Below, piece by piece: positions 55 through 53,064 of a stretch of DNA of 53,749 bases. Position 1 is the stretch's first letter; each line of letters opens with the position of its first letter. The DNA lies in NCBI GenBank assembly GCA_947176775.1, contig CAMWRY010000002.1, positions 1 through 53,749 of the forward strand, in the 5' to 3' direction. Source of the stretch: an uncultured Bacteroides sp. (GTDB lineage: Bacteria > Bacteroidota > Bacteroidia > Bacteroidales > Bacteroidaceae). Both the position numbers and the translations under genes were made by a program. Below the pieces are notes generated by a model. That model was not told the origin of the DNA. It searched no databases and saw only the letters and a list, made by a program, of their open reading frames with translations.

Positions 55-125
55 ATGATCCGGAGATGATCCGGAGCAGGTACGGAGTTGATCCGGAGAT
101 CATCCGGAGATCATCCGGAGATGGC
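55..125. repeat. 11-bp tandem array, core CCGGAG (six units)
   Basis: The word CCGGAG (once ACGGAG) starts at 60, 71, 82, 93, 104 and 115, exactly 11 bp apart, with all units in the same orientation. The typical unit is ATCCGGAGATC. The third unit reads GGTACGGAG, a word also found in the array near 50707. The array lies in the gene-free stretch 1-348; from about 130 to 348 I see only AT-rich sequence downstream of glf. No coding potential is visible. Confidence 0.85.
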
Positions 126-26924: not shown

Positions 26925-27008
26925 CCTTGTATGCACGAGATGTGCATCTCATGTATCTCGAGATGTGCATCTCGTGTTGTATGAGATGTGCATCTCGTGC
27001 ATACAAGG
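26925..27008. repeat. Palindromic repeat array, GAGATGTGCATCTC with 23-bp period
   Basis: GAGATGTGCATCTC occurs at 26937, 26960 and 26983, exactly 23 bp apart. Each copy is nearly palindromic (GAGATGnnCATCTC). The block is framed by the inverted pair CCTTGTATGCACGAGATG and its complement ending at 27008, so the whole 84 bp can fold as one long stem or as three small ones. It lies between the convergent MBL-fold and HTCS-2 genes. Confidence 0.85.
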
Positions 27009-33247: not shown

Positions 33248-33364
33248 TTGCCAATCTCAGGACGCTGCTTTGGCACAGCCTTGCCAACATATAGGCAAGG
33301 TCTTGCCTGCCTATTGGCAACGGCTTGCCAACCCGTTGGCAAGAGGCTGCCAGTGGGTTGGCAG
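33248..33364. repeat. 11-bp-period array of TTGCCAA/TTGGCAA motifs
   Basis: Motif starts at 33270, 33281, 33292, 33303, 33314, 33325, 33336, 33347 and 33358 are all exactly 11 bp apart; another, TTGCCAA at 33248, is in phase. TTGCC-type and GGCAA-type units mostly alternate, so neighbouring units form hairpins, the best being CTTGCCAAC-CC-GTTGGCAAG (33324-33343). The array lies in the 246-bp gap between the carboxylesterase and SusC-2, where no other element was recognised. Confidence 0.85.
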
Positions 33365-33437
33365 GAAGTGGTAGCAACGCCGCCATCCATATAAAAACAA
33401 CACTTGAATTATTAACATAAATCTAATTTAAACGAAA

Positions 33438-36400
33438 ATGAAACAAATCATGAAGCTGACAGAACGGAGGAGATTCGCCACACTGGCACTCTTCCTGTTA
33501 ATCTGCCTTCCTTTCACGCTGGCACAAGCCCAGACGATGAAAGTGACCGGCAAGGTGACCGACAACCTGAACGAACCGATGATTGGTGTAAGTATCGTAG
33601 AGAAAGGTACTACCAACGGTTGTATTACCGATATTGACGGTAATTATACATTGAATGTAAATCAGGGAGCGACAATTATTTTCTCTTACATCGGCTACAT
33701 AACCCAAGAGAAACAAGCCGTTGCCGGTGTGATGAACATTGTCTTGAAAGAAGACAGCGAGACGCTGGACGAAGTGGTGGTAGTAGGTTACGGTGTGCAG
33801 AAGAAAAGCTCCGTGACAGGAGCCATTTCGCAGGTGAAGGCCGAAGACATGCAAAACCGTACTATCAGTGATGCTTCACAAGCCTTGCAGGGTAAGACAG
33901 CCGGTGTGCAGTTGATTACGACTTCTGCCGCTCCGGGTTCCTCACCTACGGTACGTGTGCGCGGTTATTCGTCCAATGCGGCTTCCAGTCCGCTTTATGT
34001 GGTGGATGGCGTACGCATGAGCAGCATTGCCGGTATCGACCCTAATGATATTGCCAGTATGGAAGTGCTGAAAGATGCTGCTTCCGCTGCTATCTATGGT
34101 GCTGAGGCCGGTAACGGTGTTATCCTTATATCAACAAAGAAAGGTAAAGCCGGACAAGGAAAAATTACGTATGACTTCCAGCTTTCCACGCAATCCATTG
34201 CCCGTATGCCCAAGTTGCTTAATGCAGAAGAATACGTTGATTACATGTCGGAAAGCAAAGCTTTCGACCCCAATTTCATAAAAGCCAATTGGGATGGAAA
34301 GACCAACACGGACTGGCTGGATATTGCCTTTGAAAACTCATTGATGATGAAGCACAATTTGGCTTTTGCCGGAGGTGGCGAACAGGGTAATTATTATTTG
34401 TCGCTGACTTATCTGGACAATGACGGTATTGTAAAAGGGAAAGACGATGTTTACCAACGTATGACGGCTACCGTCAATGCCGAATACAACATAAAGCCTT
34501 GGTTGAAGGTAGGTACGACAAACCAGATTGAGAAGTATAATACTCGCGGTGTATCTACGCAGAATGCCTATGGCAGCTTCCTGCAATCCGTTCTGATGAT
34601 GGACCCCTTGACACCGGACACTTATGCACCGGACAAATTGCCTGCCCACATGCAGAACGCTTTGAATCAGGGCAGCACATTGTTGCAGGACGAAAACGGC
34701 AACTACTATGCCTCTTCTCGTTTCTATGAAGGTGAAAACTACCATCCTACAGTGATGCGTAAGAATACCATTGGCCGTAACAGCGGATTCAATGTCAATG
34801 GTTCTATTTATGCGGACTTCACGCCCATCAAGGGATTTACCTTTACTTCCCGTTTCGGCTACCGTCTGGGGGGCACTCGCTCTGCTACAACCAATTTGCC
34901 TTTCTATGGCAACTCAATACAGAAACGTGATTATGTAAACGTAAGTAGCCAGTCTTCTACAAGCATTTATTACCAATGGGAAAACTTTGCCAATTACGTA
35001 AAATCGTTCAATGGGCATACCATCAATGCCATGCTGGGTATGTCGTTCCAAGAATCCACTTACGACTATGTAAAAGGTTCTCTCGACCCGGATGGCGAGC
35101 ATGCCGTACTTCAGAACAATCCGTTGTTCTTTTATCTGAATTACGGTGCTGCTTCTGCAATCAAGGGTATCGGTGGTGAGAAGACCCGTTCGGCCAAGAT
35201 GTCTTACTTTGGCCGTGCAAGCTACGATTATATGGGGCGCTATATGGCTCAGTTCTCGCTGCGTGCTGATGCGGCAGATATGTCACAACTGCCAGTGACA
35301 AACCGTTGGGGATATTTCCCGGCAGTCTCTTTAGGTTGGACGGTTTCGGAAGAAAAGTTCTTTGAGCCGGTGAAACAGCACGTCAGCAGCTTGAAGCTGC
35401 GCGCCAGTTGGGGACAGAACGGTAGCCTTTCCGCATTGAGCGGTTATGCCTACAGTACGGATATGGCTTCCAGCGGTATCTATCCGCTGACCGGAGGCAA
35501 TGGTTTCACTACTGGTGTGAACCCCGCTTCATTGGGTAATGATGAGTTGAAATGGGAGACATCCGAACAGATTGATTTTGGTATGGATGCCCGTTTCCTG
35601 CGTGACCGCCTGACTTTCAGCGTAGATTATTATGAAAAGAAGACGAAAGATTTGTTGGTGCTGGATACGAAACCCTCTCTCAGTATTGGTGGAAAGACTT
35701 CTCCGATGAATGCCGGTAATGTAAGCAACAAAGGCTGGGAGTTTGAATTGGGCTGGCGCGATAACATCAAGGATTTCAGCTACAGCATCCGTGCCAACTT
35801 GGCCACATTGAAGAATGAAGTAACTTATCTGGATCCCTCACAGCCTCGTATTGAAGGAGCTTCATTCCATACTTACAAACTGAGCTACTTTGAAAAGGGC
35901 TATCCGGTGTACTATTTCCGTGGTTATCAGTTTAATGGTCTGGACGAAAAGGGCAATCCTACTTTCAAGGACCTTGATAACAGCGGCACTCTTAATGAAG
36001 GCGACTTGGCTTATATTGGTGATGCCATTCCCGATTTTACGTATGGTATTACCTTGACAGCTGCCTATAAAGGGCTTGACCTTACTATATTTGGTACGGG
36101 TTCACAAGGTAACGATATTTTCCATTGTTACTACCGTCCTGATTATAGTAAGAGTAACCGTTTGAAAGAAGTTTGGTATGATAATCATTGGTCTACAAAC
36201 AATCCGACCGGTACAGTACCTTTGGCTAATGCTAATAATATAGACCAGTACATCCAGTCCGATGCGATGGTTTACGATGCTTCTTTCTTCCGCATCAAGC
36301 AGATTCAGTTGGGCTATACCTTGCCGAAATCACTGCTGAAAAAGGTATTTATCAACAACATGCGCCTTTATTGTTCACTTGACGACTTCTTCGTTTTCAC

Positions 36401-36518
36401 AAAATACCCCGGTTTCGATCCGGAATCTTCGGCTAACGCCACTACGGGTATGGGTATTGATATGGGTGGTTATCCTGCTTCCAAGAAAGTGGTGCTTGGT
36501 TTCAATATAGAATTCTAA
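33438..36518 (+). CDS. SusC-family TonB-dependent transporter (SusC-2)
   Basis: The 1026-residue outer-membrane importer has a signal peptide ending near FTLAQAQ, the N-terminal beta-sandwich VTGKVTDNLNEPMIGVSI, TonB-box-like EVVVVGYG, plug segments (TAGVQLITTSAAPGSSPTVR, PLYVVDGVRM) and a barrel closing with KKVVLGFNIEF. It is strongly similar to SusC-1 throughout, as if the two loci arose by duplication. An ATG at 33450 (MKLTERRR) is an alternative start. It pairs with SusD-2 25 bp downstream. Its codon use is more AT-rich at third positions than that of the downstream enzyme genes. Confidence 0.95.
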   Translation: MKQIMKLTERRRFATLALFLLICLPFTLAQAQTMKVTGKVTDNLNEPMIGVSIVEKGTTNGCITDIDGNYTLNVNQGATIIFSYIGYITQEKQAVAGVMNIVLKEDSETLDEVVVVGYGVQKKSSVTGAISQVKAEDMQNRTISDASQALQGKTAGVQLITTSAAPGSSPTVRVRGYSSNAASSPLYVVDGVRMSSIAGIDPNDIASMEVLKDAASAAIYGAEAGNGVILISTKKGKAGQGKITYDFQLSTQSIARMPKLLNAEEYVDYMSESKAFDPNFIKANWDGKTNTDWLDIAFENSLMMKHNLAFAGGGEQGNYYLSLTYLDNDGIVKGKDDVYQRMTATVNAEYNIKPWLKVGTTNQIEKYNTRGVSTQNAYGSFLQSVLMMDPLTPDTYAPDKLPAHMQNALNQGSTLLQDENGNYYASSRFYEGENYHPTVMRKNTIGRNSGFNVNGSIYADFTPIKGFTFTSRFGYRLGGTRSATTNLPFYGNSIQKRDYVNVSSQSSTSIYYQWENFANYVKSFNGHTINAMLGMSFQESTYDYVKGSLDPDGEHAVLQNNPLFFYLNYGAASAIKGIGGEKTRSAKMSYFGRASYDYMGRYMAQFSLRADAADMSQLPVTNRWGYFPAVSLGWTVSEEKFFEPVKQHVSSLKLRASWGQNGSLSALSGYAYSTDMASSGIYPLTGGNGFTTGVNPASLGNDELKWETSEQIDFGMDARFLRDRLTFSVDYYEKKTKDLLVLDTKPSLSIGGKTSPMNAGNVSNKGWEFELGWRDNIKDFSYSIRANLATLKNEVTYLDPSQPRIEGASFHTYKLSYFEKGYPVYYFRGYQFNGLDEKGNPTFKDLDNSGTLNEGDLAYIGDAIPDFTYGITLTAAYKGLDLTIFGTGSQGNDIFHCYYRPDYSKSNRLKEVWYDNHWSTNNPTGTVPLANANNIDQYIQSDAMVYDASFFRIKQIQLGYTLPKSLLKKVFINNMRLYCSLDDFFVFTKYPGFDPESSANATTGMGIDMGGYPASKKVVLGFNIEF

Positions 36519-50648: not shown

Positions 50649-50743
50649 GGTCTGGTCCGTACCCGCTCCGTACCTGCTCCGTATAAAAGTACCTTTATAC
50701 GGAGCTGGTACGGAGCAGATACGGACCGGGTACGGACCAGACC
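50649..50743. repeat. 95-bp inverted repeat made of 11-bp units
   Basis: CCGTAC-type words start at 50657, 50668 and 50679 and TACGGA words at 50698, 50709, 50720 and 50731, each series exactly 11 bp apart. The two halves are inverted, so GGTCTGGTCCGTACCCG and its complement close a hairpin of about 40 bp per arm. The word GGTACGGAG is shared with the array at 55-125. It lies in the 615-bp gap 50522-51136 after GH29 and could also act as its terminator. Confidence 0.85.
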
Positions 50744-50903
50744 TCCTTTTTGCTAAGTCACAGATAGCAATTAAGCACGAAAATTTCGCCAACAAGCACG
50801 AAAAAACTCTGTTCACTGTGCCTAAGGTTGAAAACAGGCATATCTCGCAATTCTTTTGTATATGTAAGACTTTAGTTATAAACTTTTACAAATAGGCTTA
50901 ATG

Positions 50904-50991
50904 AACGTGAGTTCGGTATAAGCGATAACTTACATGCCGCATGGTAGCTTCAACAACATGCGGTCTATGGGTTATCGCTTATATTCACGTT
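50904..50991. repeat. Long interrupted inverted repeat upstream of rimP
   Basis: Three perfect arm pairs nest in order: AACGTGA/TCACGTT (7 bp), TATAAGCGATAAC/GTTATCGCTTATA (13 bp) and CCGCATG/CATGCGG (7 bp), closing on a 13-nt loop. A 5-nt bulge lies on the left arm. It ends about 50 bp before the rimP promoter. Between this and the 11-bp array are two AAGCACGAAA words (50774, 50793) and AT-rich sequence without a gene. Confidence 0.8.
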
Positions 50992-51038
50992 AGTGATAGG
51001 TGGAATTTCAAGCAGATGAATCTTTTTTTCGCTAATAT

Positions 51039-51608: not shown

Positions 51609-52874
51609 ATGGCCAAAAAAGTAGAAACTGTCAGCTTGATAGACACATTTTCGGAATTCAAGGAACTGAAGAATATCGACAGGACCACGATGGTAAGCGT
51701 ACTCGAAGAGTCGTTCCGCAGCGTGATTGCGAAAATGTTCGGTACTGATGAAAATTACGACGTGATTGTGAACCCGGACAAAGGGGACTTCGAAATATGG
51801 CGTAACCGTGAAGTGGTGGCAGACGAGGATTTGGAAAATCCGAACTTGCAGATTGCGCTGTCGGAGGCACAGAAGATAGACGCTTCCTACGAAGTGGGTG
51901 AGGAGGTGACGGATGAAGTGATTTTTGCCAACTTTGGCCGTCGCGCCATCCTGAACCTGCGCCAGACGCTGGCTTCCAAGATTCTGGAACTGGAGAAAGA
52001 CAGTATCTATAATAAATACATTGACAAGGTAGGCACCATCATCAACGCGGAGGTATATCAGATATGGAAGAAGGAGATGCTGCTGCTTGATGACGAAGGC
52101 AACGAACTGCTGCTGCCCAAGACCGAACAGATACCGAGCGATTTCTACCGCAAAGGCGAGACGGCTCGCGCTGTGGTGGCACGTGTGGACAATAAGAACA
52201 ACAATCCCAAGATTATCCTGAGTCGCACATCGCCCGTCTTCCTGCAACGCCTGTTCGAGATGGAAGTGCCCGAAATCAATGACGGGCTGATTACTATCAA
52301 GAAGATTGCCCGTATTCCCGGCGAGCGTGCCAAGATTGCCGTTGAAAGCTACGACGACCGCATCGACCCGGTAGGCGCCTGCGTGGGTGTGAAGGGTAGC
52401 CGTATTCATGGTATTGTTCGCGAGCTTCGCAACGAGAATATCGACGTTATCAACTATACGTCGAACATACAATTGTTCATACAGCGTGCCTTGAGCCCTG
52501 CCAAGATCTCTTCCATCCGCCTGAACGAGGAAGAGCGCAAGGCGGAAGTGTTCCTGAAACCGGAAGAGGTGTCGCTGGCTATCGGTAAAGGCGGTTTGAA
52601 TATCAAGCTGGCCAGTATGTTGACTGAGTACACCATCGATGTGTTCCGTGAACTGGACGAAGCGGTCGAGGATGAAGACATCTACTTGGACGAATTCCGT
52701 GATGAAATAGACGGGTGGGTAATTGATGCCATCAAGTCCATCGGCATTGATACGGCCAAAGCCGTGCTGAACGCTCCCCGTGAGATGCTGATTGAAAAGA
52801 CGGACCTCGAAGAAGAAACGGTGGACGAGGTATTGCGCATTTTGAAACAGGAATTTGAAGAAGAAGGAGAATAA
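51609..52874 (+). CDS. nusA: Transcription termination/antitermination factor NusA
   Basis: The 421-residue protein binds RNA polymerase and nascent RNA and modulates pausing, termination and antitermination. The N-terminal polymerase-binding domain (about 1-125, VSVLEESFRSVIAKMFG) is followed by an S1 domain (about 130-200, ARAVVARVDNKNNNPKIILS) and tandem KH domains (about 205-345, RIPGERAKIAVESYD, VGACVGVKGSRIHGI, AIGKGGLNIKLA). The acidic C-terminus is short, as expected for Bacteroidetes, without the extra repeats of E. coli. It starts 4 bp after rimP. An 8-bp tandem repeat begins at its stop codon. Confidence 0.95.
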   Translation: MAKKVETVSLIDTFSEFKELKNIDRTTMVSVLEESFRSVIAKMFGTDENYDVIVNPDKGDFEIWRNREVVADEDLENPNLQIALSEAQKIDASYEVGEEVTDEVIFANFGRRAILNLRQTLASKILELEKDSIYNKYIDKVGTIINAEVYQIWKKEMLLLDDEGNELLLPKTEQIPSDFYRKGETARAVVARVDNKNNNPKIILSRTSPVFLQRLFEMEVPEINDGLITIKKIARIPGERAKIAVESYDDRIDPVGACVGVKGSRIHGIVRELRNENIDVINYTSNIQLFIQRALSPAKISSIRLNEEERKAEVFLKPEEVSLAIGKGGLNIKLASMLTEYTIDVFRELDEAVEDEDIYLDEFRDEIDGWVIDAIKSIGIDTAKAVLNAPREMLIEKTDLEEETVDEVLRILKQEFEEEGE

Positions 52875-52910
52875 TGTGGTAATGTGATAATGTGCTAATG
52901 TGCTAATGGA
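52872..52910. repeat. 8-bp tandem repeat TAATGTGN (five units)
   Basis: TAATG starts at 52872, 52880, 52888, 52896 and 52904, exactly 8 bp apart; the first unit overlaps the nusA stop codon. Further on, CCCATTAG-TACATTAT-type words (52964-52990) and GCACATTA near 53045 are inverted relatives, so the 190-bp gap before infB can fold back on itself. Confidence 0.75.
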
Positions 52911-53064
52911 GATAGTGGGGCTATCGCCATCCATGTAGCGCAGCACATTCACAGCGCACTTCCCCATTAGTACATTATTCCCCATTAGCCAATAGTGTAT
53001 TTGTATATTCGCACATGGATGTACTTGCATATTGGTACATTGGCACATTAATTCATTGTAATTT

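Follow-up and report, generated by a model that had tools for sequence, protein, structure and literature searches.

The window analyzed here is a stretch of 53,749 nucleotides on contig C2 of a draft Bacteroides genome (285 contigs totaling 2.2 Mb, with a completeness of 64.5%). Its forward strand carries a carboxylesterase-family gene (PF00135; 31464–33191) followed by a SusC-like TonB-dependent receptor gene (33438–36518), the SusC protein being 98% identical to that of B. muris and 95% identical to that of B. rodentium. An array of short words, assigned to neither strand, lies in the gap between the two genes, starting 56 bp after the esterase stop codon, a placement at a gene 3′ end that is typical of its family (see below), and ending 73 bp before the SusC start. 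Read in 11-mers, positions 33248–33368 give TTGCCAATCTC, a blank step, and then nine core words (33270–33364) in the order TTGGCAC, TTGCCAA, TAGGCAA, TTGCCTG, TTGGCAA, TTGCCAA, TTGGCAA, CTGCCAG, and TTGGCAG. The core words start every 11 bp without a break (33270, 33281, and so on to 33358), and an outlying word, TTGCCAA (33248–33254), is in phase with them two lattice steps to the 5′ side, the position at 33259 being degenerate. The first-pass annotation had described both the exact spacing and the in-phase outlier, and both stand: the array scores 9/9 on the lattice when up to two mismatches are allowed per word, and 500 shuffled versions of the gap with dinucleotide content preserved reached at most 4.

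The word is a 7-bp near-palindrome, TTGSCAA, with TTGGCAA and TTGCCAA being mutual reverse complements. Among the nine core units, word positions 3 and 5 are conserved in 9/9 and positions 1, 2, and 6 in 8/9, and the 4-bp spacers show no conservation. Read in order, the word centers are G C G C G C G C G, an unbroken alternation. The orientation had been called mostly alternating; the alternation is real but strict over the nine units, and the repeat unit is therefore a 22-bp dyad rather than 11 bp. The strongest hairpin in the minimum-free-energy structure is an 18-bp inverted repeat (33324–33365; arms at 33324–33341 and 33348–33365) in which the spacers pair as well. Folded as RNA, the array gives z = −5.1 to −5.3, and Rfam yielded no match at gathering score in the window. 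The array is absent from the esterase–SusC gap of B. muris and B. rodentium, but this absence is uninformative, since the gap does not align. A Mediterranea relative carries an unrelated 22-bp array (four copies of TTACCGACCAAGGTCGGTCAAC) in the corresponding gap (L047:4834–4928).

A genus-wide repeat family

In 420 kb of the source genome, intergenic array clusters numbered 7 at lag 11, 17 at lag 22, 7 at lag 33, and 9 at lag 44, versus none at any of these lags in 20 shuffles of the intergenic DNA; the other lags were mostly near zero, with a few clusters at 7, 21, and 23. Autocorrelation at lag 11 had been proposed as a check on the locus, and these peaks bear the periodicity out. A 22-bp peak also appears in other Bacteroides stretches with other words, which agrees with the expectation that different loci would share the period and differ in their core words. 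No such arrays occur in 10.6 kb of intergenic DNA from E. coli K-12. The annotation had further placed the motifs on one face of the helix. The 22-bp period is indeed constant across families that differ in word and in palindrome length, and a period fixed despite varied palindrome lengths is better accounted for by the geometry of the double helix than by the length of hairpins.

The window array is one dispersed copy of a genus-wide repeat family, referred to below as TGSCA. Of 160 Bacteroides genomes, 70 contain the pattern TTGSCA-N5 taken three times, with 1 to at most 240 matches per genome; the reversed pattern, used as a control, gave close to zero. Outside Bacteroides, a multi-match run was found in a class-wide sample solely in genome G256, and the family is almost absent beyond the genus. 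Dozens of loci with no relation to one another carry an identical word. An operator private to the esterase–SusC gap and local to its polysaccharide utilization locus (PUL) was rejected because the family is genus-wide and sits at unrelated genes. TGSCA arrays have no shared flanks, leader or tail, or terminal repeats outside the array, and a literature search turned up no earlier account of these arrays in Bacteroides.

The structure of the unit can be read from its junctions. Among 453 adjacent junctions of distinct TGSCA arrays, 410 alternate and 43 do not. The closing pair is complementary in 145 of 182 G-to-C junctions (A–T 127, C–G 18), more than in any of 1000 shuffles, whereas C-to-G junctions shun complementarity (29/228 vs. 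75 expected). These opposite tendencies indicate that the unit is an 18-bp hairpin, TTGGCAA-N4-TTGCCAA, with a directional 4-bp spacer. Base changes at the closing pair preserve the hairpins, and the earlier suggestion that neighboring words pair as hairpins is thus upheld by the G-to-C junctions.

DUF6078 genes and their arrays

A second copy of the TGSCA array in the source genome lies on contig C61 (1542–1660) at the 3′ end of a DUF6078 gene (PF19555), and this copy and the window array both consist of TTGSCAA at 11 bp. TGSCA arrays are likewise found at DUF6078 3′ ends in four other genomes (G069, G086, G042, and G123), whose proteins are 52–71% identical to that of C61. We surveyed DUF6078 in 25 genomes, partly picked for TGSCA arrays, in which nearly all genes could be read with their downstream DNA. 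A lag-11/22 array follows the stop codon of 52 of the 72 DUF6078 genes, compared with 17 of 188 other genes followed by a similar gap (P = 2×10−23), and when TGSCA words are left out 33 of 51 DUF6078 genes still have an array (P = 2×10−15). Lag 22 accounts for 51 of the 72 3′ ends, and non-multiple lags tested between 8 and 24 for 0 to 4 each. The DNA upstream of DUF6078 had at least four words on the lattice in 0 of 31 cases.

The home copy of the TGSCA family sits directly behind a DUF6078 gene, and the words of the paralogs differ on a common 22-bp lattice: TGCCA, TTACA/GTTAC, TCTCA, TTCCA, TCCCA, GTTTC/TTTCA, TGCAG/TTGCA, and CTTTA, many of which fit TNNCA/TGNNA. Word type follows the DUF6078 protein tree, requiring 19 changes where shuffled labels average 46 (with about 30 labels assigned by eye; linkage alone would yield some agreement), and the TGCCA, GTTAC, TTCCA, and TGCA types each occupy a single branch. 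Since a gene and the array beside it are passed on together, this agreement is by itself no proof of recognition. About 11 DUF6078 genes, spread over several subclades, have no array, and in some of the arrays the words are mostly in the same orientation and fold poorly. Some array-less subclades show a single large palindrome with TGTCA/TGACA words past the stop codon (L382/L384, L405/L412/L418, and L409/L411).

The dispersed arrays match the genes of the genome in which they lie, an agreement that does not depend on linkage. The source genome has three DUF6078 genes, with the words TGCCA, TGCAG (/TTGCA), and CTTTA, and all three words are also dispersed in it (on C2, in the window; on C3, C5, and C13; and on C7, respectively); none of ten words from foreign paralogs was found in the same 420 kb. 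Among 22 genomes chosen by TGSCA count alone, a TGSCA-type DUF6078 occurs in 15 of 17 TGSCA-rich and 0 of 5 TGSCA-poor genomes (P = 8×10−4); the exceptions, G157 and G049, have plentiful TGSCA arrays and no TGSCA-type DUF6078. Across 197 genomes of the class, DUF6078 is confined to the Bacteroides family, with G256 as the sole outsider. Its DUF6078 gene lies on C59 with the array behind it, and G256 is the outlier common to the TGSCA and DUF6078 searches. Genomes thus hold dispersed arrays of the words carried by their own DUF6078 genes, and by its sequence the window array is a “solo” copy belonging to the TGSCA-type DUF6078 of the source genome. Taken together, these matches suggest a previously undescribed partnership between DUF6078 and scattered DNA sites. 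DUF6078 is already catalogued in Pfam (PF19555) as a family of unknown function; a literature search returned no paper on DUF6078 and no described repeat partner.

The DUF6078 protein has about 144 amino acids and four invariant cysteines (Cys17, Cys22, Cys28, and Cys59), and its C-terminal region, YYR.RKGERLLSP.EQ, is conserved. Residues 81–124 show weak similarity to an Xre-like helix-turn-helix (E = 0.002, below the Pfam cut-off), which hints at DNA binding. Comparisons gave no usable relative in the PDB, no defense family in PADLOC, and no match to transposase families. DUF6078 was not found in viral contigs, where matches to the array pattern are scattered, mostly single, and taken as chance; a phage origin of the system was rejected on these grounds.

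Siting behind genes and turnover

Genes were called mechanically, with the longest open frame setting the gene start, a choice that works against the 3′-end bias observed. The gene ends found within 60 bp of TGSCA arrays are 3′ ends in 44 cases and 5′ ends in 2 (P = 5×10−11, Fisher’s exact test against randomly placed blocks). TGSCA arrays lie between convergent genes in 20 of 42 cases versus 33 of 191 in the background (P = 7×10−5), and between tandem genes the array is closer to the 3′ end of the upstream gene in 19 of 22 pairs (P = 9×10−4). The bias was seen for the TGSCA family only; it was not found for two other families of the source genome, A and B (see below). The control of read-through that the first-pass annotation had envisaged for the window array is possible, as family copies sit at gene 3′ ends. 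Several TGSCA arrays lie behind mutually similar genes (30–43% identity; L214, L301, L304, L315, L316, L321, and L343), with at least one flank AraC-like by eye, possibly an enriched class of neighbor.

Siting at gene 3′ ends could also reflect an RNA element, in which rows of transcript hairpins past stop codons would serve as a terminator, a Rho-linked stop, or an exonuclease block, and DUF6078, if involved at all, would bind RNA. The strong folding of the window array and the complementary closing pairs of G-to-C junctions are in keeping with such an element, but we regard it as improbable. C-to-G junctions avoid complementarity, some DUF6078 arrays fold poorly with their words mostly in one orientation, and a period of 22 is held across families of differing palindrome length, which hairpins alone do not need. 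Nor is there the T-tract of an intrinsic terminator: the 8 nt directly past 59 array-bearing 3′ ends contain at most 5 T, and at most 3 T in 48 of the 59. An initial count of canonical terminators (3/59 vs. 29/87) raised the idea that arrays replace them. It was dropped after a fairer comparison, in which canonical terminators were not significantly rarer at array 3′ ends (9/59 vs. 24/87, P = 0.11).

Change over time was followed between two sister species (G086 and G042), whose array flanks are mostly 91–98% identical. The array is retained at 10 of 10 loci where both flanks align, its length shifts by steps of about 22 bp (84 to 128; 117 to 76), and at L299/L329 and L301/L344 an internal segment between inverted words is flipped. 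Over TGSCA arrays, words persist and spacers diverge. Gain and loss of 22-bp units and hairpin inversions would also be produced by a neutral minisatellite, arising through slippage and template switching on quasi-palindromes in any spacer, with the fixed 22 bp reflecting the in vivo helical repeat, and families A and B have the 22-bp period without DUF6078. Such an origin is nevertheless highly improbable given that words are kept as spacers diverge, that an identical word stands at dozens of unrelated loci, that the association with one protein family is very strong, and that no arrays occur in the 10.6 kb of E. coli intergenic DNA.

Known repeat systems and a candidate boundary mechanism

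TGSCA arrays are similar to the REP/BIME elements of enterobacteria and Pseudomonas in being dispersed extragenic palindromes, alternating, numerous in a genome, nearly genus-specific, and located at 3′ ends, and to REP/BIME–RAYT systems in that a home copy lies beside the cognate gene family. REP/BIME elements are bound by gyrase, IHF, or Pol I. The array word differs from REP in being a 5–7 bp half-site on an 11-bp lattice rather than a 20–40 bp hairpin, DUF6078 takes the place of an HUH (Y1 tyrosine) transposase as the linked gene, and, unlike in REP–RAYT, one genome has several DUF6078 paralogs with differing words. RAYT was rejected as the partner, as the source genome, at 64.5% completeness, has no match to it (Y1_Tnp, PF01797) and DUF6078 is linked instead. 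REP palindromes end with a GTAG or CGTC tag (PMC3733652), which is absent from the TGSCA units examined. With neither RAYT nor tag, the array was not filed as REP; by analogy, it may work like REP/BIME with a different cognate gene.

The same layout, a gene with a flanking copy, many dispersed copies, and paralog-specific words, would be expected of a selfish REP/REPIN-like element, in which DUF6078 or a recruited partner copies or mobilizes the array, the offspring are non-autonomous and bring no host benefit, and gene 3′ ends are merely tolerated insertion sites. The variation in dispersed copy number between genomes, from 1 to more than 200 matches, fits this as well. We consider it unlikely, if less so than the RNA element, as the protein of about 144 amino acids matches no transposase family, no conserved flanks or terminal repeats lie past TGSCA arrays, the array is kept at all two-sided orthologous loci of the sister species, and viral contigs have no DUF6078.

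We favor, at a probability of roughly 60%, a role for dispersed TGSCA arrays and their sequence-specific binding by DUF6078 in a REP/BIME-like boundary behind genes. DUF6078 would be a sequence-specific DNA-binding protein that reads its own word, with each helical turn offering one TGNNA half-site to one protomer. Successive protomers would point in opposite directions, and sites on one helix face would allow side-by-side assembly. Assemblies past stop codons, preferentially between converging genes, would form the boundary, which may act in the formation or protection of transcript ends, in blocking read-through, or in handling supercoils. Arrays would turn over by gain and loss of 22-bp units and hairpin-mediated inversion with their words kept, and at the window locus the esterase transcript would be set apart from the SusC/SusD genes. 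A broader proposal, which we hold more tentatively and at slightly under even odds, is that DUF6078 is a DNA-binding family in which divergence has left each paralog with a TGNNA word of its own to read, the paralogs marking gene 3′ ends genome-wide at one site per helical turn, with interchangeable words and no relationship to REP–RAYT.

A prominent class of intergenic repeats, blank in current annotation, would thereby be explained, and an uncharacterized family in a dominant gut genus gains a testable partner, with dozens of sites per genome whose sequence is predictable from the paralog. If binding holds, the natural variety of words on an invariant lattice would provide a recognition code readable from sequence alone and would show how gene ends are marked in Bacteroides, a genus whose 3′-end and nucleoid biology is poorly understood.

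Plasmid iterons and helically phased operators offer another comparison: their sites lie about 22 bp (two turns) apart and are cooperatively bound by a protein encoded nearby. TGSCA arrays differ in being chromosomal and dispersed, in having half-sites that alternate every 11 bp, and in lying behind genes and not at an origin or promoter. Among Bacteroidales intergenic repeats, BrickBuilt and MITEPgRS of Porphyromonas gingivalis are 23-bp (41-bp) tandem minisatellites in about 10–20 copies, and BrickBuilt has a leader, a tail, and terminal inverted repeats (PMC4596501). TGSCA arrays have none of these three, but family B of the source genome (GACAGACAC) fits the BrickBuilt plan. Its 22-bp palindrome array (GACAGACAC/GTGTCTGTC) lies within a MITE bounded by the terminal inverted repeats CCTGTTGGCGGAATTAA, at about 26–30 loci (e.g., L193, L032:7533–7618, and L204).

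Family A consists of direct 11-bp arrays, TMCGGAG-N4, of up to 12 units, with two in the window (55–120 and 50656–50741) and at least 27 genome-wide (e.g., L180:1571–1699). An inverted arm often precedes a short loop, a leader (CGTACCCGAACCGTACCATCTCCG) is conserved, and neither a DUF6078 partner nor a 3′-end bias was found. Arrays of TTGTACA with a 22-bp period (TTGTACAGAA/TTCTGTACAA) occur in G026 (L104:14414 and L105:7658) and G003 (L113:18607); these genomes have no DUF6078, so the arrays may have a different partner. A common origin for all 22-bp arrays was rejected, as DUF6078 is linked neither to families A and B nor to the TTGTACA arrays.

In Prevotellaceae (L054–L083), 8/16/24-bp A-rich tandem repeats stand right before the starts of SusD-like and other genes, unlike the habit in Bacteroides. 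The window itself contains a 23-bp repeat made up of the palindrome GAGATGTGCATCTC between converging genes (26928–26999), and an 8-bp array of TAATGTGC (52872–53049) that recurs in inverted form as GCACATTG about 120 bp further on, similar elements being found at L031:15736–15864. Inverted ends (GTGAGTTCGGTATAAGCGATAAC ... GTTATCGCTTATATTCACGTT) at about 50890–51000 resemble those of P. gingivalis MITE239 (PMC4596501).
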